NCBI RefSeq assembly: GCF_014643735.1
Contig: NZ_BMKA01000009.1
Location: 31,704-95,703, forward strand
Length of the DNA: 64,000 nucleotides
Origin: Neptunicoccus cionae
GTDB taxonomy: Bacteria; Pseudomonadota; Alphaproteobacteria; Rhodobacterales; Rhodobacteraceae
Reading direction: 5' to 3'
Positions within the stretch are counted from its first letter, which is position 1, and each line of letters begins with the position of its first letter. Below the pieces are notes generated by a model that saw only the letters and a program-made list of their open reading frames with translations, was not told the DNA's origin and searched no databases. The position numbers and the translations under genes were made by a program. Positions 1 through 24,458 of the stretch are shown here, piece by piece.

Positions 1-570
1 TGGAGTAATCCTCGTTGCGACGTCGCTAGAAAGAGAGTTCATACGCGCAGCGTGGTTTGCCGCACTTCCGACCCATACGAGATCGTTGTTGTTACGTATT
101 CCACTTCTAACGACAAGCATATCAGATGTATCAATGCCGACAGTATGGCGCAGAGAGAAGTTTGTTGAAGTATATTGATTTTTTAGTGCTGGGTTAATTA
201 CCTTCTTGACCAAATAGTTGATCTGCATCCCCGTTTTAGCGGCATCAGAGTTCTTGCTGTCACCGATAAAGACACCCATCACCCGATCACCATCGAAGGA
301 TCGAACTTCACCACCGTTTAGGCGGATAGTCCTCGTCGCACACAGCAAGAATGCTTTGTACAGTTCAGCGGCAAATTTTACGTCGTACTGATCGACAATC
401 TCCGTTGAGCCGTCCATGTCTGCGTAAAGTACGGTCGCAGAGATAGAGCGGCCAACATTCGACAGCCCAATGTCTTGCGACTTTGGAACAACTTGACCTT
501 TGGTCTCAGTCCAAGCCGTCGTAAAGATTGCTCGGACGTTCTCGTGCATCTTGTCCTCAAATTCACTCAC
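1..570 (-). CDS. pycC: Class III nucleotide cyclase, PycC-like (3' end beyond window)
   Basis: Read on the minus strand from a GTG at 570 that overlaps the stop of the upstream effector gene by 8 nt (GTGAGTGA); an internal ATG at 549 is the alternative start. The translation has the class III cyclase landmarks: the first metal-binding Asp in YADMDGST, the second Asp in SFDGDRVMGVF, and the WVGSAANHAARM segment with the catalytic Asn and Arg. All catalytic positions are present, so a symmetric homodimer should be active. The reading frame is still open at base 1, so the C-terminus is missing. Gene order WYL regulator, cNMP-binding membrane effector, cyclase matches Pycsar anti-phage loci, where the cyclase makes cCMP or cUMP on infection. 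The base made cannot be read from the sequence alone. Confidence 0.75.
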   Translation of the reverse strand, partial: MSEFEDKMHENVRAIFTTAWTETKGQVVPKSQDIGLSNVGRSISATVLYADMDGSTEIVDQYDVKFAAELYKAFLLCATRTIRLNGGEVRSFDGDRVMGVFIGDSKNSDAAKTGMQINYLVKKVINPALKNQYTSTNFSLRHTVGIDTSDMLVVRSGIRNNNDLVWVGSAANHAARMNSLSSDVATRITP

Positions 571-1474
571 GTCTGTTTGAGCTCCTTCGCAAATCTCGAT
601 CTGCTAACCAAGACATCAAAGCCAGCCCTGCGAGAGAAAGATAAATTATGGCGACTCCCCACCATTTTTGCTCTGGATTCGAACTAAAATTCCAAAGAAA
701 CGGAAGTGGCTGCCGTGTCCCGTTAACCGAGAATGAAAGGCTAAAAAGGGTCTGGACTGCCTGAGCAATCATGGCAGTTCCCGAAAGCCAAAACATGTTT
801 CGATAAATAAAATCTGGGTTCATTCTTATTGCAACGAGAGTGCCGGACGCGCCAGCCCCAATGGCAAACAGGATAGCCACCCAAACCGGAGACCCACCAA
901 GTCCGAACCAAACTCCGCATAGGACTCCGACTACCGCTCCGAACACAACCGACGCCCATGTCCATGTGGTTCTGGATGAGCTCTTTCCGTCACCTAGTAA
1001 CCTAATGTTTTTTCGGTTCATGGAATCGACCATGTCAGACAATCGCTCACGAAACTCAGCGTTCTTCGACATTAGATCTCTGAAATCATGAGCGGAGATG
1101 ACTCGGGCCTCCACATTCGGTGTACTCACAATAACATCCGCAGATCGAGCCGATCCTGGCTTCATCGCTGCCATTTCCCCAACGGTTTCGGTTGCTTCTT
1201 TGGAGTCGATAAAATTTGAGTTGATGTATACCCCAACTGAACCGAACAATAAGAAATACACGTCGTCAGCGTCATCGCCCTGTTTCAGCAAGACGTGACC
1301 TTTCGGGAACCGAACCAATTTAGACCGGCTAACTATATCTTTGGCCAGTTCTTCATTGTTAGCAACAAGCTTGCTCCGGCAGATGATTTTGTGGTGTTTT
1401 TCCAACACGGATTCCAAGAGATGATCATTCTCCTCGGGTGGCGCTAGCTCTTCTATTTTCTTCTTTCTAAGCAA
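563..1474 (-). CDS. pycTM: Cyclic-nucleotide-binding transmembrane effector, PycTM-like
   Basis: 303 aa. Residues about 35-150 form a cyclic-nucleotide-binding fold (VRFPKGHVLLKQGDDADDVYF, then VGEMAAMKPGSARSADV, the phosphate-binding-cassette region). Residues about 170-295 carry four hydrophobic segments ending in a charged tail, DRDLRRSSNRRE. This is the PycTM architecture, in which cyclic-nucleotide binding is thought to trigger membrane disruption and abortive infection. The frame opens at a TTG (1474) inside the last codons of the WYL gene (22-nt overlap) after GGAAGAG; no in-frame ATG occurs before the conserved domain. It is translationally coupled to both neighbours, so the three proteins should be made together. 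It could also be a cAMP-gated membrane protein unrelated to defence, but the neighbour cyclase argues against that. Confidence 0.7.
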   Translation of the reverse strand: MLRKKKIEELAPPEENDHLLESVLEKHHKIICRSKLVANNEELAKDIVSRSKLVRFPKGHVLLKQGDDADDVYFLLFGSVGVYINSNFIDSKEATETVGEMAAMKPGSARSADVIVSTPNVEARVISAHDFRDLMSKNAEFRERLSDMVDSMNRKNIRLLGDGKSSSRTTWTWASVVFGAVVGVLCGVWFGLGGSPVWVAILFAIGAGASGTLVAIRMNPDFIYRNMFWLSGTAMIAQAVQTLFSLSFSVNGTRQPLPFLWNFSSNPEQKWWGVAIIYLSLAGLALMSWLADRDLRRSSNRRE

Positions 1475-2328
1475 GTCTCTATCTCTTCCAAGTTTGAAAT
1501 TTTTAGTCGGTAGCTACTCTTATTGCGCATCGCTTCGCCCTCGATCTCCAGAGGATCAAAGCCGTAGAACCTAAGATAGTAGAAGATCATTGCCTTGCGG
1601 ACTGGGAGCTCCAGACAACCATCGATCATACTATATTCGATTTCGACCTGTTCTTTCTGTCTTGCCGTAAGTCCCGGTTCCGCTTGAAGTTTCATCTTAA
1701 TTAATTGATGCCATTGCGTGTCTGGTCGAAGATCTGGGCATTGGTTACTCGACACGTTGGCAACCTCAATTCTTGAAAGCACAAAATCTGAGTATCTGTC
1801 TTTCTCAAGATCGAATGCACGCATGTGCCACCTGTGACCGTCGCTTGCCAATGCGTGTGGACAAAGCGTGCGCGCGCCTTCTGTGTCTGAACTCAAAGAC
1901 ACGTATTTGACCGTCAAACATGTTTTTGCATCGATGGCCTCTAATACGGCCCGAAGAACTTTGGAATCCATCTTACGGGACGCAACGGCAACAGCATCAA
2001 ATTCAGGAACTGACGCTGGCCAAATTTCGTTCGCCGTGCGGTAACCGTGATGATGCATTTCAAGTTGATGAAGGTACTCCGCAGCTTCGCCGCCGCTGAA
2101 GACAGGTTTGAAGTTCGACCGAGAAACGTATGTCCGGCGGCGTGTGTCATAAGCCATGTTCTTGGGTGCCAAGTCCAAGTAGGAAGTCAAATCAAGTGTA
2201 GCCTGCTGCGGCGATATCTCGAACTGCTCAGTCAGCAGCTTCCGTCCAACTGCTCCCTCCCACATAAGCTGAAATTCAATGAACTGGTAGCGCCTACGCA
2301 GGCTCGGCTTGATGCCTTCATGTTTCAT
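1453..2328 (-). CDS. WYL-domain transcriptional regulator (CapW/BrxR-like)
   Basis: 291 aa. An N-terminal winged HTH (about 1-70, RRRYQFIEFQLMWEGAVGRK), a linker, a WYL-type domain (about 125-195: TVKYVSLSSDTEGARTLCPHAL, then GHRWHMRAFDLEKDRYSDFVLSRI) and a C-terminal WCX-like region. This arrangement is that of CapW/BrxR repressors, which keep CBASS, BREX and other defence operons silent until a ligand appears. The start at 2328 is set by GGGAG six bases upstream. It is the first gene of the leftward operon and faces the tandem-cyclase operon across a 123-bp gap, so one repressor could control both directions. Ligand unknown; a nucleotide or nucleic-acid signal is the usual guess for the family. 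Confidence 0.8.
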   Translation of the reverse strand: MKHEGIKPSLRRRYQFIEFQLMWEGAVGRKLLTEQFEISPQQATLDLTSYLDLAPKNMAYDTRRRTYVSRSNFKPVFSGGEAAEYLHQLEMHHHGYRTANEIWPASVPEFDAVAVASRKMDSKVLRAVLEAIDAKTCLTVKYVSLSSDTEGARTLCPHALASDGHRWHMRAFDLEKDRYSDFVLSRIEVANVSSNQCPDLRPDTQWHQLIKMKLQAEPGLTARQKEQVEIEYSMIDGCLELPVRKAMIFYYLRFYGFDPLEIEGEAMRNKSSYRLKISNLEEIETCLERRK

Positions 2329-2335
2329 GTCTGGT

Positions 2336-2390
2336 CTCCCTACGATACTTTAGCATATTGACATTTAATATGGTAGTCCCAATATATAGA
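2336..2390. promoter_or_regulatory. Divergent promoter with imperfect inverted repeat, candidate WYL operator
   Basis: In the gap between the WYL gene and the tandem cyclase, CTACGATA (2340-2347) and TATGGTAG (2369-2376) form an inverted repeat (7 of 8 pairs, 21-bp spacer). Between and beyond the arms lies TTGACA (2358-2363), with AATATA (2381-2386) at 17 bp or TATATA at 19 bp, a plausible rightward promoter. One arm sits beside the WYL ribosome-binding site. A repressor bound here would cover both divergent start regions. Function is inferred from position. Confidence 0.4.
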
Positions 2391-2451
2391 ATGTAGTTAT
2401 AAAATAGGCTGGCTCGTGCTGGTCTATCGCATTCAACAGAAGGAATGAAAA

Positions 2452-4050
2452 ATGTCGTGGAGCGAACCCGAGGCGCGAACCCGAATTGAGAAGCTTGTTA
2501 GGGAAGTACCTGATGTGGGTGTCCGGCGTTTTGAGAAATACCTTCCGCTCTACGAGGCTGACAAGGCCCTTATGACGGCGCGAGATCAGCAAATCTCTCC
2601 GCCGCTATTTAGTCTTCCGCGAGGCAAAGCGGTCGTCGTAGACACTGTTCAGGTCTACATCGCGATTAGTAACTATGATGAGTACCGGCTGGAAGAAGGC
2701 CGTGAAACGGAAGCATCGCATGATCGTGCGCTACGTCTGCTTCATCTCTACTATAGCGCTGCAGATCGGGTGATCGAAAAGTCGCCTGCGCAGCGTGTCG
2801 ACTTTCACAATGGTCGGGTCCACGCGGTTGTGCTTGAACTAGAGGAGGGTGGCATAAGTCGCGACACGCTGGCGCAAGCAATGGCCTTCATTGAAGATTT
2901 CAAGCAGGTCGCCCACGCCGCCAACCAGCAGTTAGCAAACGGAGAGTTCAATGCGGTTTTCCGGATCGGAGTTGATGTTGGCACCTGTGTTGCAATCAAC
3001 AATGGAACTGGCTCTGAACAAGAACCCATGTTCTTGGGGCGACCAGCCAACCACGCGGCCAAGCTTGCTCACGGGGACGAACCTGGCGTTTATGTAAGCG
3101 ATGCAGTGCGCAAAATCTTGGGGCAGCCTGAACTCGGAGTTCTTGAGCAATTCAGAGGCCTTACCGATGTCGAGATCGCTACTAATTCTGCGAGACTGTC
3201 AGATGGTGAAAGCCTAGAGTTCGGGGTGCAGAACCGTCAGCAGTTCACGGACGAAGTCGTCGGGAACTGGCGCAAGGAAATCGCGAGTGGTGATTTTCCA
3301 GACTTTACCGATCCACGGTTCGTTTTCTCCTATCAAGAACCTCCGCTGAGCGAGATCGACTATGCTGAACTAATGCCCAGTAAGTCGATCAGAATGCCCT
3401 TAGTTTCGATGTATGCTGACCTGTCTGGTTACACGGACTATATTGATAGAGCTGTTGCAACCGGAGGGATTGGTGAAGCGGTTCGCGCACTCTACGTCAT
3501 GCGGCAAGAGTTTCAGAACGTAGTTGAGGAAGATTTTGGTGGCCGGAAGGTTCGCTTCATCGGTGATTGTATTCATGCGCTGATAGCTGAAGGATCCGAG
3601 AATGAGACGAGCTCACGCGATACCGTCGCCTCAGCTACTCATTGTGCAGGTGGGCTTCACTCTTCGTTCGCTCTTTGCCAATCGATCCTCGGAGGTTTGG
3701 ACAGTCTTGGCTTAGCGGTCGGCCTTGAACTTGGCCCAACTCCGATTTCACGGATTGGCATTCGCGGGGACCGCTCGGTTCGCGTGGCCTCCAGCATCGC
3801 CACAGCGCGCTCTGAGAAAATGCAGAAGGACTGCGAACACAACGGTGTGAAGCTTGGTGAAAATGCACTTGCTGCGGCACCGGTCGCTCTTGCCGATATC
3901 CTGACTGAAGGCTTTGCGGCAGAACTTGATTATGGAGATGTAGCTGTGTGTTTGGCTGCGCCCGCTCCTTCATTGGCAAGCCCTACTTACGCCCGCGCGC
4001 ACGTCCCGTCGCCAACACCGGAACCACGCGCACATTTGAAGACTGAATGA
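2452..4050 (+). CDS. Tandem (pseudo-heterodimeric) nucleotide cyclase
   Basis: 532 aa with two class III cyclase-like domains, about 60-225 and 313-460, joined by a roughly 85-aa linker. Aligning them by eye, domain 2 keeps both metal Asps (D323 in YADLSGYTDY, D372 in RFIGDCIHALI), while domain 1 has Ala71 and Gly121 there. Domain 1 instead keeps the Asn/basic pair (N200, K204 in GRPANHAAKLA), where domain 2 has Arg444 and Ser448. The halves therefore complement each other as mammalian C1/C2 domains do, predicting one working active site per chain. GRPANHAAKL is close to the PycC motif across the divergent promoter (GSAANHAARM), suggesting common ancestry. The last four bases, ATGA, start the E2-like gene. 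Product nucleotide and effector are unknown. Confidence 0.7.
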   Translation: MSWSEPEARTRIEKLVREVPDVGVRRFEKYLPLYEADKALMTARDQQISPPLFSLPRGKAVVVDTVQVYIAISNYDEYRLEEGRETEASHDRALRLLHLYYSAADRVIEKSPAQRVDFHNGRVHAVVLELEEGGISRDTLAQAMAFIEDFKQVAHAANQQLANGEFNAVFRIGVDVGTCVAINNGTGSEQEPMFLGRPANHAAKLAHGDEPGVYVSDAVRKILGQPELGVLEQFRGLTDVEIATNSARLSDGESLEFGVQNRQQFTDEVVGNWRKEIASGDFPDFTDPRFVFSYQEPPLSEIDYAELMPSKSIRMPLVSMYADLSGYTDYIDRAVATGGIGEAVRALYVMRQEFQNVVEEDFGGRKVRFIGDCIHALIAEGSENETSSRDTVASATHCAGGLHSSFALCQSILGGLDSLGLAVGLELGPTPISRIGIRGDRSVRVASSIATARSEKMQKDCEHNGVKLGENALAAAPVALADILTEGFAAELDYGDVAVCLAAPAPSLASPTYARAHVPSPTPEPRAHLKTE

Positions 4051-4856
4051 ACTCACTAGCCCTCCTCATCCGATCGAGCCCAAATTGGGTCGAAGTTCAG
4101 GAACAGAGCTTCGATGCTGCTGGCATAGTGGCGACACCACCTTTGCAGGGGGGCAAGCAGCCTAAGACTTTCTTTCTGAGACTGCGTCCCTCTTCTAGGG
4201 GAGGGGTGGCCGTGTATGAGCAAGCGTCTTCAAGGCAATGTCCCGGCTTTTGCCCTGAGAGACACATCAACCCAGACAGTAGCTTCTGCGTCTTCTATGG
4301 TTCGGAAGAGCGAATATCGGATACCGGACGTGCTGAGACTTGGTGGTCGCACCTCGCCCAGTTTCTTGAATGCCAAGTATTTGCGGAAAAAAGAGGCGTG
4401 TGGCCGCTGCGCTCGGGATTAAGTCATGGAGATGCTGCAGATCACCAAATCGCCATGGAAAACATTGCCGATAATCATGGCTGGGGGGATGAAATTCTTG
4501 AAGGGATATTTCGTCGTCGTGGGTGGCTAGCCGATAGGCTGCCTCCTGCGTCCAAAGACAAGAAAATGGTTCTTAATTCGCGCACGCCGTGTCCTCGCGG
4601 TTGTCGCTGGAAGCATAAGTTGCTGCGGAAGCGATCATGCCAGATAGAAGCGTGTTTTGTCGGATGCGGAAGGCAGCACAAACCAATTCTCCGTGCGGAT
4701 TGCCCTAATCGACGTAGCGTCGAAGACATCGTTCTTCATGAGCATAAACGCCGAAAGATCGAGCAAGACGCGATAAAGCACTTTTTTCAGAAGGGACATC
4801 GGTGTTGTGGTACGATGCAGCACTGTCCGCTCCGTGATTTGGAAGAGGCTGCCTAG
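4047..4856 (+). CDS. E2-like (ubiquitin-conjugating fold) cysteine-rich protein
   Basis: 269 aa, overlapping the tandem cyclase by ATGA, so translationally coupled. The first 165 residues resemble bacterial E2-like proteins found in defence loci: a CPERHINPDSSFCVFYG segment (Cys81 a candidate catalytic cysteine), a WW pair near 99, then WPLRSGLSHGDAADHQIA and a GDEILEGIFRRRGWL helix. The C-terminal third is cysteine-rich (C182, C186, C198, C203, C207, C219, C253, C254, C260), a likely zinc-binding module. I recall similar proteins annotated as E2-domain-associated cysteine-rich proteins, but the assignment is from memory and by eye. No E1, JAB or ubiquitin-like gene is visible between here and the insertion sequence. 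Partner and substrate unknown. Confidence 0.5.
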   Translation: MNSLALLIRSSPNWVEVQEQSFDAAGIVATPPLQGGKQPKTFFLRLRPSSRGGVAVYEQASSRQCPGFCPERHINPDSSFCVFYGSEERISDTGRAETWWSHLAQFLECQVFAEKRGVWPLRSGLSHGDAADHQIAMENIADNHGWGDEILEGIFRRRGWLADRLPPASKDKKMVLNSRTPCPRGCRWKHKLLRKRSCQIEACFVGCGRQHKPILRADCPNRRSVEDIVLHEHKRRKIEQDAIKHFFQKGHRCCGTMQHCPLRDLEEAA

Positions 4857-5400: not shown

Positions 5401-6747
5401 CTATTCCGCCACGTGTACAATCTTCTTCTTGGCCCGTGATCCTGACGGCCGCCCAGGCGTTTTACCGTTTGGCTTGTAGCCCATCTTCTCAGAATTTGTC
5501 CTGACCGGGTATTTTGGTGGGGCCTTATCTTGCATCTCTTTGATGTACTCCAGCACGGCACCAAGGCACTTGTTGTCGGTGATGGCGGCGTGCGTCACGC
5601 GTTGATCCATGTCGAAGATTTTGTAGGGCAGGGATCGGCCTTTTGAGCGCACCTCAAACCGCCCATCAACAAATGCATAAGTGTCCACGTATTTACCGAC
5701 CAGACCGCGTGTCACATCGCTTTCTTCCAGCATGATCCGCTTGCGGTCATAGGAGAAGGTCAGTTGTTTGCCGACATAGCGTGTATCGCGCCAGCATAGC
5801 ACATCATCGAGCCGATCTGGCTCGACATTTAAGGCGCGGTGCAGGTTATCGGACTTGGCAGGAGCCTTTGCAAACTGCGCGTTGTGACGCTCCTTAAAGC
5901 CTTGCAGATAGGCGTTTCCGGCTTCCATATCCGAAATACTGGCAAGCCTCAGTTCCTTCACCAACCGGTCCTGTAGAGTCCGGTTGGCACGCTCAACGCG
6001 ACCCTTGGCCTGACTTGAATTGGCGCACAGAATCTCAACGTTCAGCTGGTTCAGCGCACGCCCAAACTGGGTCATACGCGCACCACCTTTGGCGTCTTCC
6101 TTGGCCACGCGAAACACCGTGTGCTTGTCGCTGTAGAATGCGACGGGACGACCGTGATTGAGCAGATAGCTCTCCAGTGCTTCGAAATAACTGAACGTGC
6201 TCTCGGATTTGACAAACAACAACTCCATCAAGGTGCTGGTGGCATCGTCGATAAAGACGAGCAGGGTGCAGGGACCAGAACGATCCTCAAACCAACGATG
6301 ATCCGAGCCATCGATCTGGATCAGCTCGCCGAAACATTCCCGGCGTAGACGCGGCTGGTGGAACTGGCGGCGCTGCTTGCGAGACAGCCAAATGCCATCT
6401 TCAACCATCCACTTCCGAAGCGTCTCGCGAGAGACTTTGAAGCCATGATGTTCGGCCAGCATCTCAGCCGCCAGTGTAGGCCCAAAATCCGGGTACTGTT
6501 CCTTGATCAGACTCAACGCATAGTCGCGTTTGGCTTTATGGATCTGATTGTTTGGAATTTTGCCACGCGATTTGTGCCGGATCGCCGCTGCGCCATCCTG
6601 ACGGTATCGCTTGAGCAGCCGGAAAACCTGACGACGTGTCAGGTCCAGCATGTTCGCCGCGTTGTCGACGCTCAGCCGGCCATCATCGACCTGTGCCAAA
6701 ACTTCCACACGGTTCAACTCGCGCTCGCTCATAACCACCCATCCCAT
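5401..6747 (-). CDS. ISNCY-family-like DDE transposase
   Basis: 448 aa. N-terminal HTH (about 10-60, LSVDNAANMLDLTRRQVFRLLKRY) and a second helical DNA-binding region, followed by an RNase H-like catalytic core. Candidate acidic residues are Asp in GELIQIDGSDHRWF, Asp in AFYSDKHTVF and Glu in SSQAKGRVERAN, which is the DDE pattern. A basic C-terminus (GRPSGSRAKKK) ends the protein. ATG 6747 is preceded by GAGGA at good spacing. The gene fills most of the insertion sequence and is intact, so the element may still move. Family assignment is by resemblance. Confidence 0.85.
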   Translation of the reverse strand: MGWVVMSERELNRVEVLAQVDDGRLSVDNAANMLDLTRRQVFRLLKRYRQDGAAAIRHKSRGKIPNNQIHKAKRDYALSLIKEQYPDFGPTLAAEMLAEHHGFKVSRETLRKWMVEDGIWLSRKQRRQFHQPRLRRECFGELIQIDGSDHRWFEDRSGPCTLLVFIDDATSTLMELLFVKSESTFSYFEALESYLLNHGRPVAFYSDKHTVFRVAKEDAKGGARMTQFGRALNQLNVEILCANSSQAKGRVERANRTLQDRLVKELRLASISDMEAGNAYLQGFKERHNAQFAKAPAKSDNLHRALNVEPDRLDDVLCWRDTRYVGKQLTFSYDRKRIMLEESDVTRGLVGKYVDTYAFVDGRFEVRSKGRSLPYKIFDMDQRVTHAAITDNKCLGAVLEYIKEMQDKAPPKYPVRTNSEKMGYKPNGKTPGRPSGSRAKKKIVHVAE

Positions 6748-6897
6748 GTCCGCGCATCCTCACATCGTTTTGCGAGGAGAGTGACACTTCTGCTTTGCTC
6801 ATGGGTGACATTATCGCTTTGCGGGTACATGTTCTTTTCGCATAATCTATCTTATGTTAAATATTGACAGTTTTGGACATCTTTTTTGAATGGTTTT

Positions 6898-7800
6898 TCA
6901 TTCAGCCGCAACTAAATCCGCCGTGTCGACAACGCCGTTTCTACTTACGAGTGCCACGCCAGCCACCGCTAGACCGATACCGAAAATTACTGCGGCACTT
7001 AGCGTTTCATTATAAAACAGAACGCCCATGGTTAGTCCGAAGAAGGGAACAAGGAAACTAAAGGCATTGGCCTGACTTAATGCGACTTCGGACAACACGG
7101 ACATCCACAACACGTAGACCAAAGCGGACCCAAGTACAGACAGGGTGATCAGGACCACGATGAAGGAAATAGACCAGTCAATCGCCAGCGGCGTTTCAGT
7201 GGATGCCGAGAGGATCGCAAGCGGAACCGCCCCAATTAGAAACTGCCATCCGATTGTCATCAATGGGTCTACCGTGGCGGCGATCCGTTTCAAAACAATA
7301 TTGCTGACAGTGATGCCAAGTGCTGCAAGCACGATGTAACTGACACCGATGATATAGTTGGATTGCGCCCCAGCAAAAAGGCCTGGCGCTGCAATCATGA
7401 CAATACCGGAAAAACCTAACGAAAGGCCAACTTTGCCCCGAAGTGTTAACCGTTCGCCAAGGACGACACCTGCAAGGCCCGCAGCGAGCAACGGTTGACT
7501 ATTGGCAATGACGGTCGCGATCCCGGGTGAGACCAATTCAGCTGCGTGAAACATGCCGAGAAACCCCAGGCTGGTTGCCCCAAGGCCAATTAAAGCAAGC
7601 GTCGACCATGTGCGAACACCTTTCGGGCTTGGCCGTCCAAGGGCCATAGCAAGACCAACTAGAATAAGTCCGGCAATGAGCGCACGTAGCGTCGCAAACG
7701 CAAGGTGCGGCGCGATTTTTATGCCGATCGTCAGCAGTGGGAAGCATGCAGCCCAAAGTATCATTGCCAACAGAATCTTCGCTAAAATGATGGCGCGCAT
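6898..7800 (-). CDS. EamA/DMT-family membrane transporter
   Basis: 300 aa with about ten hydrophobic segments in two similar halves, the standard EamA (RhaT-like) layout; MILWAACFPLLTIGIKIAPHLAFATLRALIAG is the typical first repeat. Family members move amino acids, metabolites or drugs across the inner membrane; the substrate here cannot be read. It lies 68 bp from the right end of the insertion sequence and is separated from the metal genes by a gap of about 120 bp, so it may be an unrelated neighbour. Confidence 0.85.
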   Translation of the reverse strand: MRAIILAKILLAMILWAACFPLLTIGIKIAPHLAFATLRALIAGLILVGLAMALGRPSPKGVRTWSTLALIGLGATSLGFLGMFHAAELVSPGIATVIANSQPLLAAGLAGVVLGERLTLRGKVGLSLGFSGIVMIAAPGLFAGAQSNYIIGVSYIVLAALGITVSNIVLKRIAATVDPLMTIGWQFLIGAVPLAILSASTETPLAIDWSISFIVVLITLSVLGSALVYVLWMSVLSEVALSQANAFSFLVPFFGLTMGVLFYNETLSAAVIFGIGLAVAGVALVSRNGVVDTADLVAAE

Positions 7801-7923
7801 ACAAACTTCCTAAGTGATAGCGGGATTTCTTTTGGGTAGACCCAAGGGAGATCCTCAGCGTCGCTGTTTTGGGTTTGATTTGTACCGTTAATATTGTCGT
7901 CCAGTGTCAAATCTTAGGATACA

Positions 7924-8094
7924 TCAATGTTCATCCTGTCGATCCGTTTCGGGGGCCGCGTTAGTTTTGGACACTTCATCAGGCTTCTTTTTGCCGTGCC
8001 CACCGTGCCCACCATGTCCGTGACCGAACAAGTGCATGGCAATCATGCCACCGCCGAAGAGAACGAGAAACCAGTTTTCTGCGAGCCATTGCAT
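7924..8094 (-). CDS. DUF2933-like small His-rich membrane protein
   Basis: 56 aa. The start MQWLAENWFLVLFGGGMIAM is chosen because it opens directly on the single hydrophobic segment and follows AGAAAG; the longer frame upstream has no such features. The tail is rich in His and Gly (HLFGHGHGGHGGHG) and then charged. Small His-rich membrane proteins of this kind are frequent beside copper and silver resistance genes and may bind metal at the membrane. It follows the DUF5676-like gene and probably shares its ECF-type promoter. Confidence 0.7.
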   Translation of the reverse strand: MQWLAENWFLVLFGGGMIAMHLFGHGHGGHGGHGKKKPDEVSKTNAAPETDRQDEH

Positions 8095-8137
8095 GAGTTT
8101 TCTTTCTGTTTGAAGTTTTCGAAATGGTGGGCTGATC

Positions 8138-8413
8138 TCAGCGCCTTTGCCGTGCGGAAAAGTAGTTGAACAACGGGCCAAAGATGAGGGCAACGAACCA
8201 GCCATAGGCAAAGGCTTCGATGAGTCCTAGGCCAAAGCTTGACCAACTAATCCAAGTGACCCACGGAAATAGCGGCAGCCATGCCTTAAACATTGTGGCT
8301 CCGGTAAAGATAAGTCCGAATGCCACGCAGATTGCAAAGGTGATTGCAAAAAATGCACCAAGACTCCATCCGAGCGCCTTGACGGGTATTTGGGGGGTGG
8401 TGGCAATGGTCAT
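8138..8413 (-). CDS. DUF5676-like small membrane protein
   Basis: 91 aa with two long hydrophobic segments (LGAFFAITFAICVAFGLIF, and SSFGLGLIEAFAYGWFVALIF). FGLGLIEAFAYGWFVALIFGPLFN matches what I remember of the DUF5676 family, found in metal-resistance clusters and without known function. First gene of a two-gene operon with the DUF2933-like gene; an ECF-type promoter (8475-8503) lies about 60 bp upstream, suggesting metal-responsive expression. Confidence 0.7.
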   Translation of the reverse strand: MTIATTPQIPVKALGWSLGAFFAITFAICVAFGLIFTGATMFKAWLPLFPWVTWISWSSFGLGLIEAFAYGWFVALIFGPLFNYFSARQRR

Positions 8414-8474
8414 AACATCTCTCCTTCTGTGCAGCGCTTAGTGTCCGATGGACAGGATAAGCGCTTTCAGTAAG

Positions 8475-8503
8475 GTAGACGTATGTGCCGCAAGAACATT
8501 ACA
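8475..8503 (-). promoter_or_regulatory. ECF-type promoter upstream of DUF5676-like gene
   Basis: On the minus strand TGTAATG (8497-8503) is separated by exactly 15 bp from CGTCTAC (8475-8481). The same two boxes with the same spacing occur at 14081-14109, 14450-14478 and, in slightly changed form, 14568-14596. The -10 box CGTCTA is typical of ECF sigma promoters. The ECF gene at 8563-9180 is the obvious reader. Confidence 0.7.
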
Positions 8504-8562
8504 CAATTGACCGCGGAAATCTGCGTTATGCTTTCAAATACAAGGTAAGTTGGTTTTTCGAC

Positions 8563-9180
8563 CTAGCAACTGGATTGCGTAGCTTTGTTTTGGCAGCCTC
8601 CCGGCGGGCAAGAACAATCACTAAAGCCGTCTTTGCAACAGCCGCCGCAGTGGTCCAGCAAACTGTCGCGTAATGCCGCGCGCGCACGGTGGAGCCGCAC
8701 ACCTAAGGCCCCGACAGATACACCAAGGTCAGCGGCAACGGATCGCCGGTCGTCGTCTTCAATATCCACGCGACGTATCAGATCACTTTGATCCGGGCGC
8801 ATGAATGGCATGAGCCCCGTTACACATTGGCAAACGTGGTCGAATTCTTCGGCTCCGTCTTCGCTTACGTCCGCCGTTTTCTGTTCATTCTCGAAAGCGG
8901 CGCTAAGCCTGCGACCACGCCCGATCTTGCGGTAGTGATCATTTAAAGTAGAGCGCAGGACCGCATAGAGCCAAGCTGTCAGTTTGTCGGTTTCACGCAG
9001 CTGGTCTTTGCGTTGCATGACCCTGATACAGAACTCCTGCAAAACATCCTCGGCCTCGGTTACGTTTCCCAATCGCTTGACCAGAAAACCAAGAAACATC
9101 TTCCGGTTAACAGAAAGCGCCTCAACAGAGGGGTCAGTCGTCGGTAGGACGTCGCCGGAAAAATGATCGTCATTGCTCAA
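8563..9180 (-). CDS. ECF sigma factor with cysteine-rich C-terminal tail
   Basis: 205 aa. Sigma region 2 (about 28-95: LGNVTEAEDVLQEFCIRVMQ, then LTAWLYAVLRSTLNDHYRK) and region 4 (about 130-180: SVAADLGVSVGALGVRLHRA). The tail (about 185-205) is packed with cysteine: HCGGCCKDGFSDCSCPPGGC. No anti-sigma gene is adjacent. This resembles metal-sensing ECF factors such as CorE, in which a C-terminal cysteine domain binds copper or cadmium and replaces the anti-sigma factor; equivalence is inferred. Probable targets are the four TGTAATG-N15-CGTCTAC promoters at 8.5 and 14.1-14.6 kb. Confidence 0.85.
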   Translation of the reverse strand: MSNDDHFSGDVLPTTDPSVEALSVNRKMFLGFLVKRLGNVTEAEDVLQEFCIRVMQRKDQLRETDKLTAWLYAVLRSTLNDHYRKIGRGRRLSAAFENEQKTADVSEDGAEEFDHVCQCVTGLMPFMRPDQSDLIRRVDIEDDDRRSVAADLGVSVGALGVRLHRARAALRDSLLDHCGGCCKDGFSDCSCPPGGCQNKATQSSC

Positions 9181-9289
9181 TTGACCGGACCTCTCTTAAA
9201 ATAGAAATGTGGCCCGTGCGCTTGTCAAAAGTGGCGGCACAAGACCCACCAAGTTGTAGTCCAAAATCAGCAGAAATGCAAATACCGCG

Positions 9290-20589: not shown

Positions 20590-21303
20590 CTATTTTAGTT
20601 GAGTAACGGTCAGTTTCCCTTTGACTCGATCAGCGACAAACTCGATATTCTGACCTTCAGACAAACTGGCAATCATTGCTTCGTCAGCACGAAACACCAT
20701 CGTCATCGCAGGCATGTCGAGGTTGACCAGTGGGCCATGAATGATGGTCACTTTTCCAGCCTTGGCGTCGACTTTCTTGATTTTGCCAGACGTGTATTCC
20801 ACGTCAGCCTGCGCCATCTGCTCGCCGACAGCAACTTCGCGGTGCATGCCGGACTCGTAGTGGCCAGGGATCAGGCAAGCCGCTTCAAACGTACCGGCAT
20901 TGGCAAAAGTCCACACCACTTCACCAGATGCGCCAGAATCAAGGCGAATGCGATTAGGATCGTCATGCTCCATGTCCATTTTTGCCATCTCGATCTTGTG
21001 CTCGGCATTGCGCTCCACAGTATCAAGGACAAACTCATGCTCTAGCTCGCCTTCGTTCTTGATCTTGAACAGAATGGTCTCACCTTGCTTGATATTCATC
21101 TCTTCGCTCTGGATCAGCATTTCGCCGTCATCGTTTTCGAGCAGAATGACATCGATTGTACGATCAACCTTTGCTGAATCGCCCGGCATACCGATCATCA
21201 TTTCCGGTGCTTCGGATGTTTCTTTCTTGGCATGACCGGCATCTGCAAAAGCGCCTGTTGCGAATGCAAATGTGATAGCGGTACTCAGAAGTAGTTTTTT
21301 CAT
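20590..21303 (-). CDS. Cupredoxin-CusF fusion protein
   Basis: 237 aa. Signal peptide (MKKLLLSTAITFAFATGAFA), a cupredoxin domain (about 45-155, with HEFVLDTVERNAEHKIEM and ACLIPGHYESGMHREV), then a CusF-like OB fold (about 165-237: SGKIKKVDAKAGKVTIIHGP, and MPAMTMVFRADEAM). CusF domains bind Cu(I) or Ag(I) through His and Met, and the MPAMTM segment supplies them. A two-domain copper carrier could pass metal to the multicopper oxidase or TolC partner upstream in the operon. Confidence 0.87.
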   Translation of the reverse strand: MKKLLLSTAITFAFATGAFADAGHAKKETSEAPEMMIGMPGDSAKVDRTIDVILLENDDGEMLIQSEEMNIKQGETILFKIKNEGELEHEFVLDTVERNAEHKIEMAKMDMEHDDPNRIRLDSGASGEVVWTFANAGTFEAACLIPGHYESGMHREVAVGEQMAQADVEYTSGKIKKVDAKAGKVTIIHGPLVNLDMPAMTMVFRADEAMIASLSEGQNIEFVADRVKGKLTVTQLK

Positions 21304-21350
21304 TTTTTCGTCCTGTTTTTAAGTTTGGTAAAGTTAAGACAGAGGGCCAG

Positions 21351-22709
21351 TTAGCCCTTCTGCGTTGGTTTAGGTGTCAGTAGTGTTTTTGGGCTTTTGT
21401 TGGAGGCAAATTCGGGAAGTTCGCCTGTCCATTCGTAAGCCATCTCACCCGGAGGATTTTCGTACCACCCGGGATCTTCGTAATCGTCCGCGTCGATGCC
21501 ATCCCGCACCTTCACAACCGAAAACATGCCGCCCATCTCAATCGGTCCATACGGCCCCCATCCTGTCATCATCGGAATGGTGTTGTCTGGAAGTGGCATG
21601 GACATTTTGGCCATGTCCCCCATTCCAGACATGCCCATAGGCATGTATTCGGGCTGGAATTGCCGGATTTTCTGGGTGAGCGGTTTCTTGTTCACGCCGA
21701 TGAACGTGGGCACATCATGCCCCATTGCGTTCATCGTGTGATGTGACTTGTGACAGTGGATAGCCCAATCCCCCAGATGTTCTGCCACAAACTCGTAAGC
21801 GCGCATCGCGCCTACCGGAATGTCGATGCTAACCTCGGGCCACTGCGCTTCAGGCGGCACCCAGCCACCATCGGTACAGGTGACCTTGAAGTCGTAGCCA
21901 TGCATGTGGATGGGATGGTTTGTCATCGTCAGGTTGCCGACGCGAACGCGCACCTTGTCACCTTTGTTCACGACAAGCGGATCAATGTCGGGGAAGATCC
22001 GGCTGTTCCAGGTCCAAAGATTGAAATCCGTCATCGTCATGATGCGGGGTACATAGGTCCCCGGATCGATGTCGAAAGCATTCAGCATGATCAGGAAATC
22101 ACGATCCACCGGCATGAATGTGGGATCCTTGGGGTGGACCACGAACATGCCCATCATCCCCATCGCCATCTGGGTCATTTCATCGCCGTGGGGGTGGTAC
22201 ATGAACGTTCCGGACTTCACCAAGTCGAATTCATAGACGAAGGTTTTGCCCGGCGGGATGCTTGGATGGCTCAACCCGGAGACCCCATCCATGCCTGAGG
22301 GGAGAATGAGCCCGTGCCAGTGCACCGTAGTGCCTTCCGGCAGCTTATTGGTGACGTAGATGCGCACCCGGTCGCCTTCGACAGCTTCTATCGTCGGGCC
22401 GGTGGATTGGCCGTTATAGCCCCACAAATGCGCGATCATGCCATCGGCCAGCTCGCGTTCGACCGGTTCGGCCACAAGGTGAAATTCCTTCACGCCGTTG
22501 TTCATCCGGTGTGGCAGGGTCCACCCGTTCAATGTGACCACAGGTGTGTAATCCGGGCCAGAACTGGGACGCGCGGTGATCGCCGTTGCCGCACTGTCCA
22601 TCTGCGCGGCCTCGGGCAAACCCATGTTCAGGGTTTGACCCCAGGCTTTCGAAGAGACCAGCGTTGCACCTGCCGCGCCGGCTCCGAGTAATTGACGTCT
22701 GTTCAACAT
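21351..22709 (-). CDS. Multicopper oxidase (CopA/CueO-like)
   Basis: 452 aa. Tat signal (LNRRQLLGAGAAGATLV). Copper sites: TTVHWHGLILPSGMDG, TFMYHPHGDEMTQMAMGMMG, HPIHMHGYDF and WAIHCHKSHHTMNAMGH, the four ligand motifs holding T1 and T2/T3 copper. Met- and His-rich stretches near 370 (MPMGMSGMGDMAKMSM) are common in cuprous oxidases. Oxidises periplasmic Cu(I) to the less toxic Cu(II). In an operon after TolC and a small lipoprotein, before the cupredoxin-CusF gene. Confidence 0.92.
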   Translation of the reverse strand: MLNRRQLLGAGAAGATLVSSKAWGQTLNMGLPEAAQMDSAATAITARPSSGPDYTPVVTLNGWTLPHRMNNGVKEFHLVAEPVERELADGMIAHLWGYNGQSTGPTIEAVEGDRVRIYVTNKLPEGTTVHWHGLILPSGMDGVSGLSHPSIPPGKTFVYEFDLVKSGTFMYHPHGDEMTQMAMGMMGMFVVHPKDPTFMPVDRDFLIMLNAFDIDPGTYVPRIMTMTDFNLWTWNSRIFPDIDPLVVNKGDKVRVRVGNLTMTNHPIHMHGYDFKVTCTDGGWVPPEAQWPEVSIDIPVGAMRAYEFVAEHLGDWAIHCHKSHHTMNAMGHDVPTFIGVNKKPLTQKIRQFQPEYMPMGMSGMGDMAKMSMPLPDNTIPMMTGWGPYGPIEMGGMFSVVKVRDGIDADDYEDPGWYENPPGEMAYEWTGELPEFASNKSPKTLLTPKPTQKG

Positions 22710-22720
22710 GTCAGTTCCTT

Positions 22721-24181
22721 TCAGTGTCCTGCGCCGCCACCGGCGGCAAGTGTCGCGCCTTCTCCACCAGCACCACCGCCATCGCCGCCGCCATAGATCG
22801 CAGCGGTCAGGTCAGCCTGAGCCATGTAGAATTCGCGTTTTGCATTTGCCGCTTCCAGCGATGCGCCAAGTTTCTCCCGCACATCTGTCAGCAGCTCGAA
22901 AGTGTTGGTGATCATGCCGTTGTAGGACAGCAGACCCTCTTCTTCGACGGTCGTGCGTAGCGGCACCAGAACGTCGCGATAGTGGCGGGCGATCTTATAC
23001 GCGGCGTGATAGGAGGCTTCAGCACCACGCGCTTCGGACCGGACGTTGACGGCTCTTTCTGCCAGCACGTTGGCTGCTTGCAGGTACGACAATTCCGCCT
23101 TGCGCATCCGTGCCTTCCCGGTGTCGTAGATAGGGATTGCGAACTCCACCTCCACCTGAGGGGTGGTCACGGTCTCCGTTTCTCCGTCCTCAATTTCCCG
23201 CTCCGCTTCGAACCCGGCAATGAATTCGAGATCGCTGATAATGCGAGTCTGATCAGTCAGACCAAACGCCTTGGCCTGTGCTTCCAGGCCAAGTTTGGCA
23301 ACGCGCAGATCAACCCGATTTCGCAATGCTTTCGCTTCGATGTCAGTCACACGGCCGACGGAACGCGGCAGCGCAGGAAGGGCATCGGGCACATAATAGT
23401 CGACTTCGGTGCCCCAAAGTCCCATGAGCCTGGTCAGCTGCTCTTTGGACCGGGTAGCATTCAAGCGTGCCTGGGCAAGTTGTCCGGCGAGTTCGGCATT
23501 GAATGCCTGTTCACGGGCCTGCCCGGCTGTGTTGAGCGCGCCGGTCTCGCCAAGCCTCATCGCCAATTCCGATCCGGCGTCAGAGGTCGCTTTCGCACGG
23601 CGCAGATAGCTCACGGCCTCGAAGGCGGCTACGGCATCGACCCATGCCTTCCGCGTCTGATTGGCCAGCGCGAGTGTGTCGTTCACCGCGTTGAGCTGTG
23701 CCTGCCGGAAGCTTGCGTCAGCAATGGCCACACGTTGTTTACGGGTGGTGGCATCGAGTACGTTCGACCGTATCAGTCCTTCGATCGCTCTGTAGGCACC
23801 CAGTTCGGGCGCACCGATGCCCAATACACCAATCGAAACGATCGGGTTTTCCGGGGTCGATTGCTGCCAGGCCTCAGCGGCGGATAGGCCGACATTCGCA
23901 TAAGACGCCTGCAACCCCTTGTTGTTCAGAAGCGCAACCTGAACGGCGGTGTCCGCCGAAATGGTCTTGCGGTGCACCATTGCGTGCACCTGCTTCTTCA
24001 AGGCCTCGTTTTCGGCCTGGGTTTCGGCGAAGGCTGTCCGTTTGCCGATGGCTGGTGTGACCTGGCTGGAAATATTGGCGAAGCCAGCTTTTGGTTCCGT
24101 GTAGATGCCCGGCACTGCTGTAGCACAGGCACCCAAGATTAGCGGAAAGCCGAAAACCAGCGGAAATTTCGATACCCGCAT
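22721..24181 (-). CDS. TolC-family outer-membrane efflux protein
   Basis: 486 aa. Lipoprotein-type signal (FPLVFGFPLILGACATA, Cys lipobox), then two OEP repeats of long helices (about 60-290 and 290-470). The tail ends in a glycine-rich segment (GGGDGGGAGGEGATLAAGGG) not typical of the fold. Outer-membrane duct, CusC-like by context, yet no RND pump or membrane-fusion gene is in the window. The start overlaps the end of the lipoprotein gene by one base. Confidence 0.88.
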   Translation of the reverse strand: MRVSKFPLVFGFPLILGACATAVPGIYTEPKAGFANISSQVTPAIGKRTAFAETQAENEALKKQVHAMVHRKTISADTAVQVALLNNKGLQASYANVGLSAAEAWQQSTPENPIVSIGVLGIGAPELGAYRAIEGLIRSNVLDATTRKQRVAIADASFRQAQLNAVNDTLALANQTRKAWVDAVAAFEAVSYLRRAKATSDAGSELAMRLGETGALNTAGQAREQAFNAELAGQLAQARLNATRSKEQLTRLMGLWGTEVDYYVPDALPALPRSVGRVTDIEAKALRNRVDLRVAKLGLEAQAKAFGLTDQTRIISDLEFIAGFEAEREIEDGETETVTTPQVEVEFAIPIYDTGKARMRKAELSYLQAANVLAERAVNVRSEARGAEASYHAAYKIARHYRDVLVPLRTTVEEEGLLSYNGMITNTFELLTDVREKLGASLEAANAKREFYMAQADLTAAIYGGGDGGGAGGEGATLAAGGGAGH

Positions 24182-24402
24182 CAGTTGCCCTCCGTCTGTT
24201 CTTGATTGACGGAACGCCAGTCGCGGGGACCTGTAGGGCCGCGATAGGTGTAGCCCGCCAAGGGGTCCTGATAGCTGATCGGTGACGAAACTGCCGCGTT
24301 GACGACGGCCTGTTGGGTCGCGACGGACGGCAAGGGGGTGGGCTCATAGGCGCATGCGCCAAGCCCGAGGGCCGAAGCCCCCACAAGTAGATGAATTTTC
24401 AT
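24181..24402 (-). CDS. Small lipoprotein
   Basis: 73 aa. Signal MKIHLLVGASALGLGACAYE with a clear lipobox (LGAC), then a short Pro- and Tyr-rich domain (YQDPLAGYTYRGPTGPRDWR). First gene of the TolC, multicopper oxidase, cupredoxin-CusF operon. Function unknown; probably outer-membrane or periplasm-facing. Confidence 0.75.
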   Translation of the reverse strand: MKIHLLVGASALGLGACAYEPTPLPSVATQQAVVNAAVSSPISYQDPLAGYTYRGPTGPRDWRSVNQEQTEGN

Positions 24403-24423
24403 GAATAGTACCTGACTGATGAA

Positions 24424-24458
24424 CTTCGGACTTACGCACAGCCGTGCGTAAAACGAAG
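24424..24458. repeat. Inverted repeat between operons
   Basis: TTACGCAC (24432-24439) and GTGCGTAA (24444-24451) pair around AGCC, with outer arms CTTCG (24424-24428) and CGAAG (24454-24458). It lies after the 24479 stop and before the lipoprotein start. No T-run follows on either strand, so an operator or processing stem is as likely as a terminator. Confidence 0.45.

Follow-up and report, generated by a model that had tools for sequence, protein, structure and literature searches.

A tandem-domain Pycsar cyclase of Neptunicoccus cionae is linked to an E2-like protein that may act on the cyclase tail

The DNA analysed here is a stretch of 64,000 nt from Neptunicoccus cionae (assembly GCF_014643735.1, contig NZ_BMKA01000009.1, positions 31,704-95,703), referred to below as the window. 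It encodes a tandem-domain (pseudo-heterodimeric) class III cyclase of 532 aa and of the PycC clade A type (2452-4050, + strand), followed by an E2-like protein of 269 aa with a cysteine-rich C-terminal domain (4047-4856, + strand). The stop of the cyclase gene and the start of the E2 gene share the ATGA at 4047-4050, so the ATGA coupling described in an earlier note on this DNA was found as described. We consider it reasonably likely, from the sequence comparisons set out below, that the locus is a clade A pyrimidine cyclase system for antiphage resistance (Pycsar) with a built-in conjugation module, in which the E2 would act on the tail of the cyclase, perhaps without an E1 and in a sortase-like manner.

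The two genes were linked in every case that could be tested. A genome scan with the cyclase alignment as the only query gave 177 relatives, and the best 80 loci were kept. The testable set consisted of 80 cyclase genes in 79 loci, as one locus (L055; loci are cited by number) ends inside the cyclase and another (L099) has two cyclases. The next conjugation gene, starting less than 300 nt from the cyclase end, was an E2 for 70 of the 80 cyclase genes, an E1-E2 fusion for eight and an E1-E2 fusion together with a JAB gene for two, and no cyclase gene was without one. The earlier note had called for a search for co-occurrence across genomes, and a partner, either an E2 or an E1-E2 fusion, was seen in 80/80 cases. 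On plasmids, tblastn returned 23 records with the E2 query and 28 with the cyclase query, all 23 being among the 28, and the best places of the two queries were at most 450 nt apart in 22 of the 23; for the 23rd, from Moraxella, the listed places are different copies and an adjacent pair is present (L009). Gene order was read in the 22 of the 28 plasmid cyclase records that were fetched, where the E2 gene lies directly downstream in 18 and an E1-E2 fusion was found in three (L007, L010, L011). L023 was counted separately, the cyclase being split by an insertion and then followed by the E2.

Pfam E2-ntca (PF20298) and PADLOC PycC (PDLC00765), searched separately, matched the same three of 398 Pseudomonadota genomes at adjacent coordinates; only one of these three genomes (G517) was new (nearest 63-65%), with a cyclase tail ending in ...LRPHAQR. 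When the E2 (P0002) was compared with 385 genomes of the class, there was one match (L001), with the cyclase adjoining, and 390 genomes of the order gave five loci, all five with an E2. These five loci are not independent, because they had exact or near counterparts among the loci used before, at 100% identity for four of the cyclases and 96% for one remnant. In the remnant (L126), only about the last 110 cyclase residues match and the tail motif described below is present, followed by the E2 frame. An in-frame E2 start overlaps the cyclase stop in the ATGA fashion in 51 of 89 cyclase-E2 pairs.

The earlier note had seen two cyclase domains in one protein, and the comparisons bear this out. 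The cyclase matches the PADLOC PycC model PDLC00762 over residues 1-525 (573 bits), and residues 29-517 are homologous to PycC of Pseudomonas aeruginosa (PDB 6YII, E 4.6e-69), the sole solved structure matching at E 0.001 or better. Pfam Guanylate_cyc matches the N-terminal half only (92-225, 26.3 bits); that both halves are real follows from the PADLOC and 6YII matches. Two aspartates of the C-terminal half (D323, D372) and an asparagine of the N-terminal half (N200) are invariant in 45 aligned cyclases, which fits one active site formed by two unequal halves, and in class III cyclases the active site can be shared between two halves. The available text of PMC11224242 assigns 6YII, the PaPycC enzyme from P. 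aeruginosa, to clade A, whose members have two cyclase domains in a row, and gives cyclic UMP (cUMP) as the product of clades A-D. The 2452-4050 product is a PycC-type class III cyclase with two consecutive domains, as in clade A, and by analogy its product may be cUMP.

The same pairing extends to the cyclase of known structure. Over 514 aa, the product of a P. aeruginosa plasmid gene shows full identity to 6YII, and a 257-aa E2 open reading frame (ORF) stands next to this gene. The gene table of this plasmid record is known to be incomplete. E2 ORFs that overlap the pycC stop are absent from the gene tables of the P. aeruginosa plasmid (L004:7518-8291) and of a Stutzerimonas stutzeri plasmid (S. 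stutzeri; L022:7518-8291).

The 269-aa protein matches Pfam E2-ntca (44-120, E 8e-18) and E2-Crich (202-262, E 1.1e-12), both above the curated cut-offs, and the PADLOC E2 model PDLC00878 over residues 1-264 (362 bits). The name E2-ntca presumably means 'nucleotide cyclase associated'. In all 90 E2 sequences P66, C69, H73, F80, C81 and H127 are invariant, so that a significant profile match stands together with a conserved candidate catalytic cysteine, as is required of a member of the E2 superfamily. This candidate is Cys81 in RHINPDSSFC (codon 4287-4289, + strand), and His127 belongs to an HG motif (codon 4425-4427, + strand). With hhalign, the E2 profile aligned to that of E2 proteins from E2-only cyclic oligonucleotide-based antiphage signalling systems (CBASS) with 98.1% probability and E 6.8e-14. 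C81 and H127 fell on matching positions, the former on the conserved cysteine of the CBASS proteins and the latter in an HG that is invariant in ten of them as well. The E2-only CBASS profile in turn picks up ubiquitin-conjugating enzymes in the PDB (best E 2e-7). The E2-like identity proposed by the earlier note is thus supported by the Pfam match and this profile link, on which it rests as a prediction from sequence. A sequence search of the PDB with the E2 and with an alignment of 61 sequences (A2) gave no match, and no E2 relatives were present in the viral contigs or phages searched.

The cyclase ends in the tail YARAHVPSPTPEPRAHLKTE-COOH, which contains two copies of RAH. The first covers residues 515-517 (3994-4002, + strand). 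The second, residues 526-528 (4027-4035, + strand), is the proposed recognition and acyl-donor motif for the E2, and the final LKTE, residues 529-532 (4036-4047, + strand), would be the leaving peptide if cleavage takes place there. Tails were compared in an E2-linked set of 89 genes, 79 with distinct last 14 residues, and an E1-E2-linked set of 13 genes with ten distinct tails. The broad motif [RKQATNE][PAS][HYFW] followed by 2-9 residues was present in 79/79 distinct E2-linked tails, and the strict form R[PAS][HYFW] in 63/79; as descriptive figures, 1000 rounds of shuffling gave a mean of 19.5 and a maximum of 34 for the former and a mean of 3.5 and a maximum of 11 for the latter. Of the 89 E2-linked cyclases, 31 have two copies of the strict motif within their final 40 aa. 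Neither form was found in the E1-E2-linked tails (0/10 each), whose final residue is Ala (8) or Ser (2); the ending is GF[SA] with JAB (L010, L011, L099, L101) and R[HN]A without it. In the controls, the broad motif was found in 1/36 single-domain PycC, 0/22 WYL proteins, 3/49 TIR proteins, 2/10 four-transmembrane (4TM) effectors, 0/7 PycTM and 2/13 fusions of a cyclic nucleoside monophosphate (cNMP)-binding domain and a cyclase. With the tail excluded from tree building, at least four switches of partner type are seen, and every group made up purely of E1-E2-linked cyclases shows the ending typical of that partner. The last residues of the cyclase go with the type of partner, which is apparently a new observation.

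Both variants stand side by side in Bradyrhizobium sp. CSA207 (L099), where a cyclase with tail GFA, an E1-E2 fusion and JAB (644-4408) are found with a cyclase fusion, a cyclase with tail ARSH... and an E2 (5643-9208). Among viral contigs searched with the cyclase, one locus was hit, a tandem PycC ending in GFA (L121), on a contig that stops before the next gene; from its ending, this next gene is predicted to be an E1-E2 fusion.

The sister loci of the JAB type resemble type II CBASS with Cap2 and Cap3, as L010, L011, L099 and L101 have the cyclase, the E1-E2 fusion and JAB in this order and a small final cyclase residue. In the available text of PMC10097602, type II CBASS cyclases end in Gly or Ala. 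The window locus differs from type II CBASS in that its cyclase tail is not a bare C-terminal Gly or Ala and in that it is without E1 and JAB: phmmer with three E1-E2 fusions and one JAB protein against all 687 frames of at least 50 aa in the window found no relative at E 0.01.

The closest outside comparison is type II-short CBASS, in which a single E2 gene comes after the cyclase gene; this E2 has H..C and HG motifs, and its C-terminal part includes a conserved Cys-rich patch. Ten such E2-only loci (three genomes, seven plasmids) with nine distinct tails were compared; an eleventh candidate (L120) was dropped, as it has a transposase gene at the expected position of the cyclase. All ten cyclases have a DncV-like nucleotidyltransferase domain (in L118 through the accession it has in common with L117) and are thus cGAS/DncV-like nucleotidyltransferases (CD-NTases). 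They end in KPW, RPH or SPW plus 2-4 residues in 10/10 loci and 9/9 distinct tails (RPHRC, SPWCDN, KPWRK, KPWFPGE, KPWFKQ, KPWGDTY, KPWCRS, KPWRN twice, and KPWKNI), a basic-Pro-aromatic/His motif comparable to that of the E2-linked tails; the broad pattern as written fits 8/9, the exception being SPW. The window locus differs from type II-short CBASS in its class III cyclase, so that it is not a CD-NTase with an E2, and the CBASS E2s have no Pfam E2-ntca match (5/5 scanned). Inheritance is no easy explanation for the likeness of the tails, because the CD-NTase and class III cyclase folds are unrelated. We therefore put forward, tentatively and with rather more reserve than the reading of the window locus itself, that class III PycC and CD-NTase cyclases converged on the same C-terminal donor tag (basic or small residue, Pro or Ala, His or aromatic residue, then a short leaving peptide), which related E1-less E2s would read, cut and rejoin without ATP. 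If so, the tail code would predict the conjugation machinery of a defence locus. In work of Yan and colleagues from 2024, a lone E2 reportedly carried out C-terminal processing, cysteine conjugation and lysine ligation of cGAS. For the E2-only CBASS type, conjugation of cyclase to cyclase is cited as a proposed means of activation in the available text of PMC11153139.

In the proposed mechanism, the halves of the tandem cyclase would form one active site and produce a cyclic pyrimidine nucleotide, presumably cUMP as in clades A-D; this product would activate the divergently encoded cNMP-binding effector, and the growth of infected cells would stop. Cys81 of the E2, perhaps aided by His73 or His127, would attack the tail at or beside the RAH motif, the last few cyclase residues would be released, and the cyclase would be kept on the E2 as a thioester and then passed to an amine, either of another cyclase or of some other protein. 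This step could tune the timing of cyclase activity. The sister systems would use an E1-E2 fusion instead of the E2, some of them together with a JAB peptidase; their cyclase tails just stop at Ala or Ser, so that the free terminal residue could be adenylated and transferred, whereas with a lone E2 the trailing peptide would be the leaving group. A reaction without ATP is suggested because no E1 was found in the window and a short peptide always trails the motif. Sortases likewise cut a C-terminal motif, hold an acyl-enzyme and transfer to an amine without ATP, although this likeness is an analogy alone and no kinship of sequence or fold is claimed. The comparisons show that the genes are linked, that residues are conserved and that tail and partner are associated. 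Control of the cyclase by ligation is what we infer from the invariant E2 residues and the partner-linked tails; the roles of the E2 residues, the point of cleavage and independence from an E1 are suggested by the same comparisons, and an effect on cyclase activity, the identity of the nucleotide and an anti-phage function are presumed.

The tail motif could also be a docking peptide, to which the E2 binds and so holds the cyclase off (or on) with no covalent step, its cysteine being structural or vestigial. Docking peptides look like this, as a short motif close to the terminus of a variable tail, and the cysteine-rich domain could be the reader. However, C81, H73 and H127 do not vary among the 90 sequences, C81 and H127 align with residues that are invariant in the E2-only CBASS proteins, and the cyclases linked to E1-E2 fusions stop exactly at Ala or Ser, which fits a chemical use of the C-terminus. 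We regard docking alone as rather unlikely. A second possibility is that ligation is real but marks a target, the cyclase being joined, as sensor or anchor, to a protein of the phage or of the envelope and the attachment itself not activating it. There is a precedent in type II CBASS of Bacillus cereus, where the cyclase becomes conjugated to PspA and, according to the proposed model, is thereby kept inactive (PMC11153139, available part). However, nothing in this analysis points to an acceptor, and in another system conjugation raises cyclic GMP-AMP (cGAMP; PMC10097602, available text), so this explanation seems unlikely.

E2 enzymes usually need an E1, and the sister systems carry one, so a conventional use could be envisaged, in which an E1 from outside the locus would charge the E2 with a separate ubiquitin-like protein for attachment to the cyclase or to phage proteins. 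Against this, the window search, which was not aimed at ubiquitin-like proteins, found no relative of E1-E2 or JAB, and with the queries used none was seen beside the E2-only cyclases, save that L079 has a 34-bit match upstream and L099 a separate E1-E2 system. It is also the tail of the cyclase itself that goes with the partner, and we hold a conventional use to be very improbable. That the genes are chance neighbours, or that a CBASS E2 was stranded beside the cyclase, for which it could be said that PADLOC uses one name, E2, for E2s beside CD-NTases and beside PycC, is refuted by the linkage in every testable case.

Several points weigh against an E2 that ligates the cyclase tail. The association of tail and partner could reflect binding just as it could reflect catalysis. 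Because the motif patterns were drawn up with the same tails in view, those of CBASS included, the shuffle figures serve as description, and the sequences are related. Profile comparison did not relate E2-ntca to the R[HN]A type of E1-E2 fusion (probability 4.8%), and the E1-E2 group of L011 and L101 is weakly supported on the tree (0.694). The 97 weaker of the 177 cyclase relatives lie outside the sample, and the extra loci of the order, intended as an independent check, were nearly all repeats. An effector was not recognised near 21 of the 80 cyclase genes, although 15 of these have a cNMP-binding cyclase fusion. Two PycC tails of the JAB type end in Ser, despite the loss of conjugation in Escherichia coli cGAS when the terminal Gly was changed to Ser (PMC10097602, available text). 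The portion of Jenson et al. that was available gives the proposed tail motif no support; the test used there looks at fixed positions and could miss a motif whose spacing from the terminus varies.

Compared with Pycsar as known, which consists of a cyclase plus a receptor protein (PMC11224242, available text), the window cyclase is of the same tandem-domain family as 6YII. The difference is that the tandem cyclases here, including the 6YII gene, have an E2 or E1-E2 partner that looks obligate. Effectors of the Pycsar kind (cNMP-binding, TIR, PycTM) are found near most relatives. The earlier note suspected a variant that had not been described, and this holds in part. The component families are already catalogued in Pfam and PADLOC, whose E2, E1-E2 and JAB models match the Pycsar-linked proteins nearly end to end in the case of PADLOC, clade A Pycsar is known and has a solved structure (6YII), and the pair may have been seen before. 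In the literature searched, we found no paper on the pair, nor a description of the tail motif or of the match to CBASS, although the pair may have been described by Tal et al. 2021, Burroughs and Aravind 2020 or Yan et al. 2024. The literature search gave no paper with Pycsar and 'E2-like', and 'E2-ntca' and 'E2-Crich' were not mentioned among the matches listed. The pair is not described in the available text of PMC12657218 and PMC10952713, from the Pycsar and ubiquitin literature, and the accessible portions of PMC4886424, PMC10910872 and PMC7159879 contain nothing that bears on it.

Pycsar is usually drawn as a cyclase with an effector and an unknown trigger. If clade A Pycsar regularly has a conjugation enzyme acting on the tail, the control step that this picture lacks could be tested at once, for cyclases of a family in which a crystal structure is available. 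If the tail code is common to Pycsar and E2-only CBASS, ligation of cyclase tails would be a general control principle of nucleotide-based immunity, and E1-free ligation by an E2 would be a small protein-joining chemistry of its own.

The genes upstream of the cyclase are all on the - strand. A divergent WYL-domain protein, likely a regulator, is encoded at 1453-2328 (Pfam WYL, 45.5 bits). The likely effector at 563-1474 has a Pfam cNMP_binding domain and a C-terminal part judged by eye to be hydrophobic; it matches PADLOC PycTIR and Effector models with 161 and 145 bits, and its SLATT match is under the cut-off for that family. This gives the locus the cyclic-nucleotide-binding effector of clade A Pycsar, in a gene that is divergent and not co-directional. 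At 1-570 there is a single-domain PycC truncated by the window edge (PADLOC PDLC00766, 274.5 bits). The WYL gene, the effector, the tandem cyclase and the E2 are found together in the plasmid relatives L002, L012 and L013, where the second cyclase is absent from the stretch fetched, and all five genes, including the single-domain PycC, are present in L003 and L021. Near 16 of the 80 genome cyclase genes there is a WYL gene with the same type of effector, and in six of these the second cyclase too. The Pycsar-like operon that the earlier note placed next door is therefore real, and the two neighbouring operons are better read, from these gene arrangements, as one composite locus rather than as separate ones, because the WYL and effector genes persist in relatives even where the single-domain cyclase is missing from the stretch fetched. 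A scan for consensus promoters and terminators gave no more matches than in shuffles.

A second cyclase was seen near 50 of the 80 tandem cyclase genes (L024-L103), as a single-domain PycC in 35 and a cNMP-binding cyclase fusion in 16, with both in one; the fusion is mostly just upstream of the tandem cyclase gene. A relay of two cyclases, in which one messenger turns on the second cyclase, is possible.

Within window positions 1-4856, the best identity to relatives is 87% for the single-domain PycC, 70% for the effector, 71-72% for the WYL protein, 70% for the tandem cyclase and 55% for the E2. Directly behind the E2 gene there is a transposase-like ORF with several helix-turn-helix domains (5401-6747, - strand). 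Further along, the window at about 20600-24424 resembles roseobacter plasmids carrying copper genes, with identity of up to about 92%.

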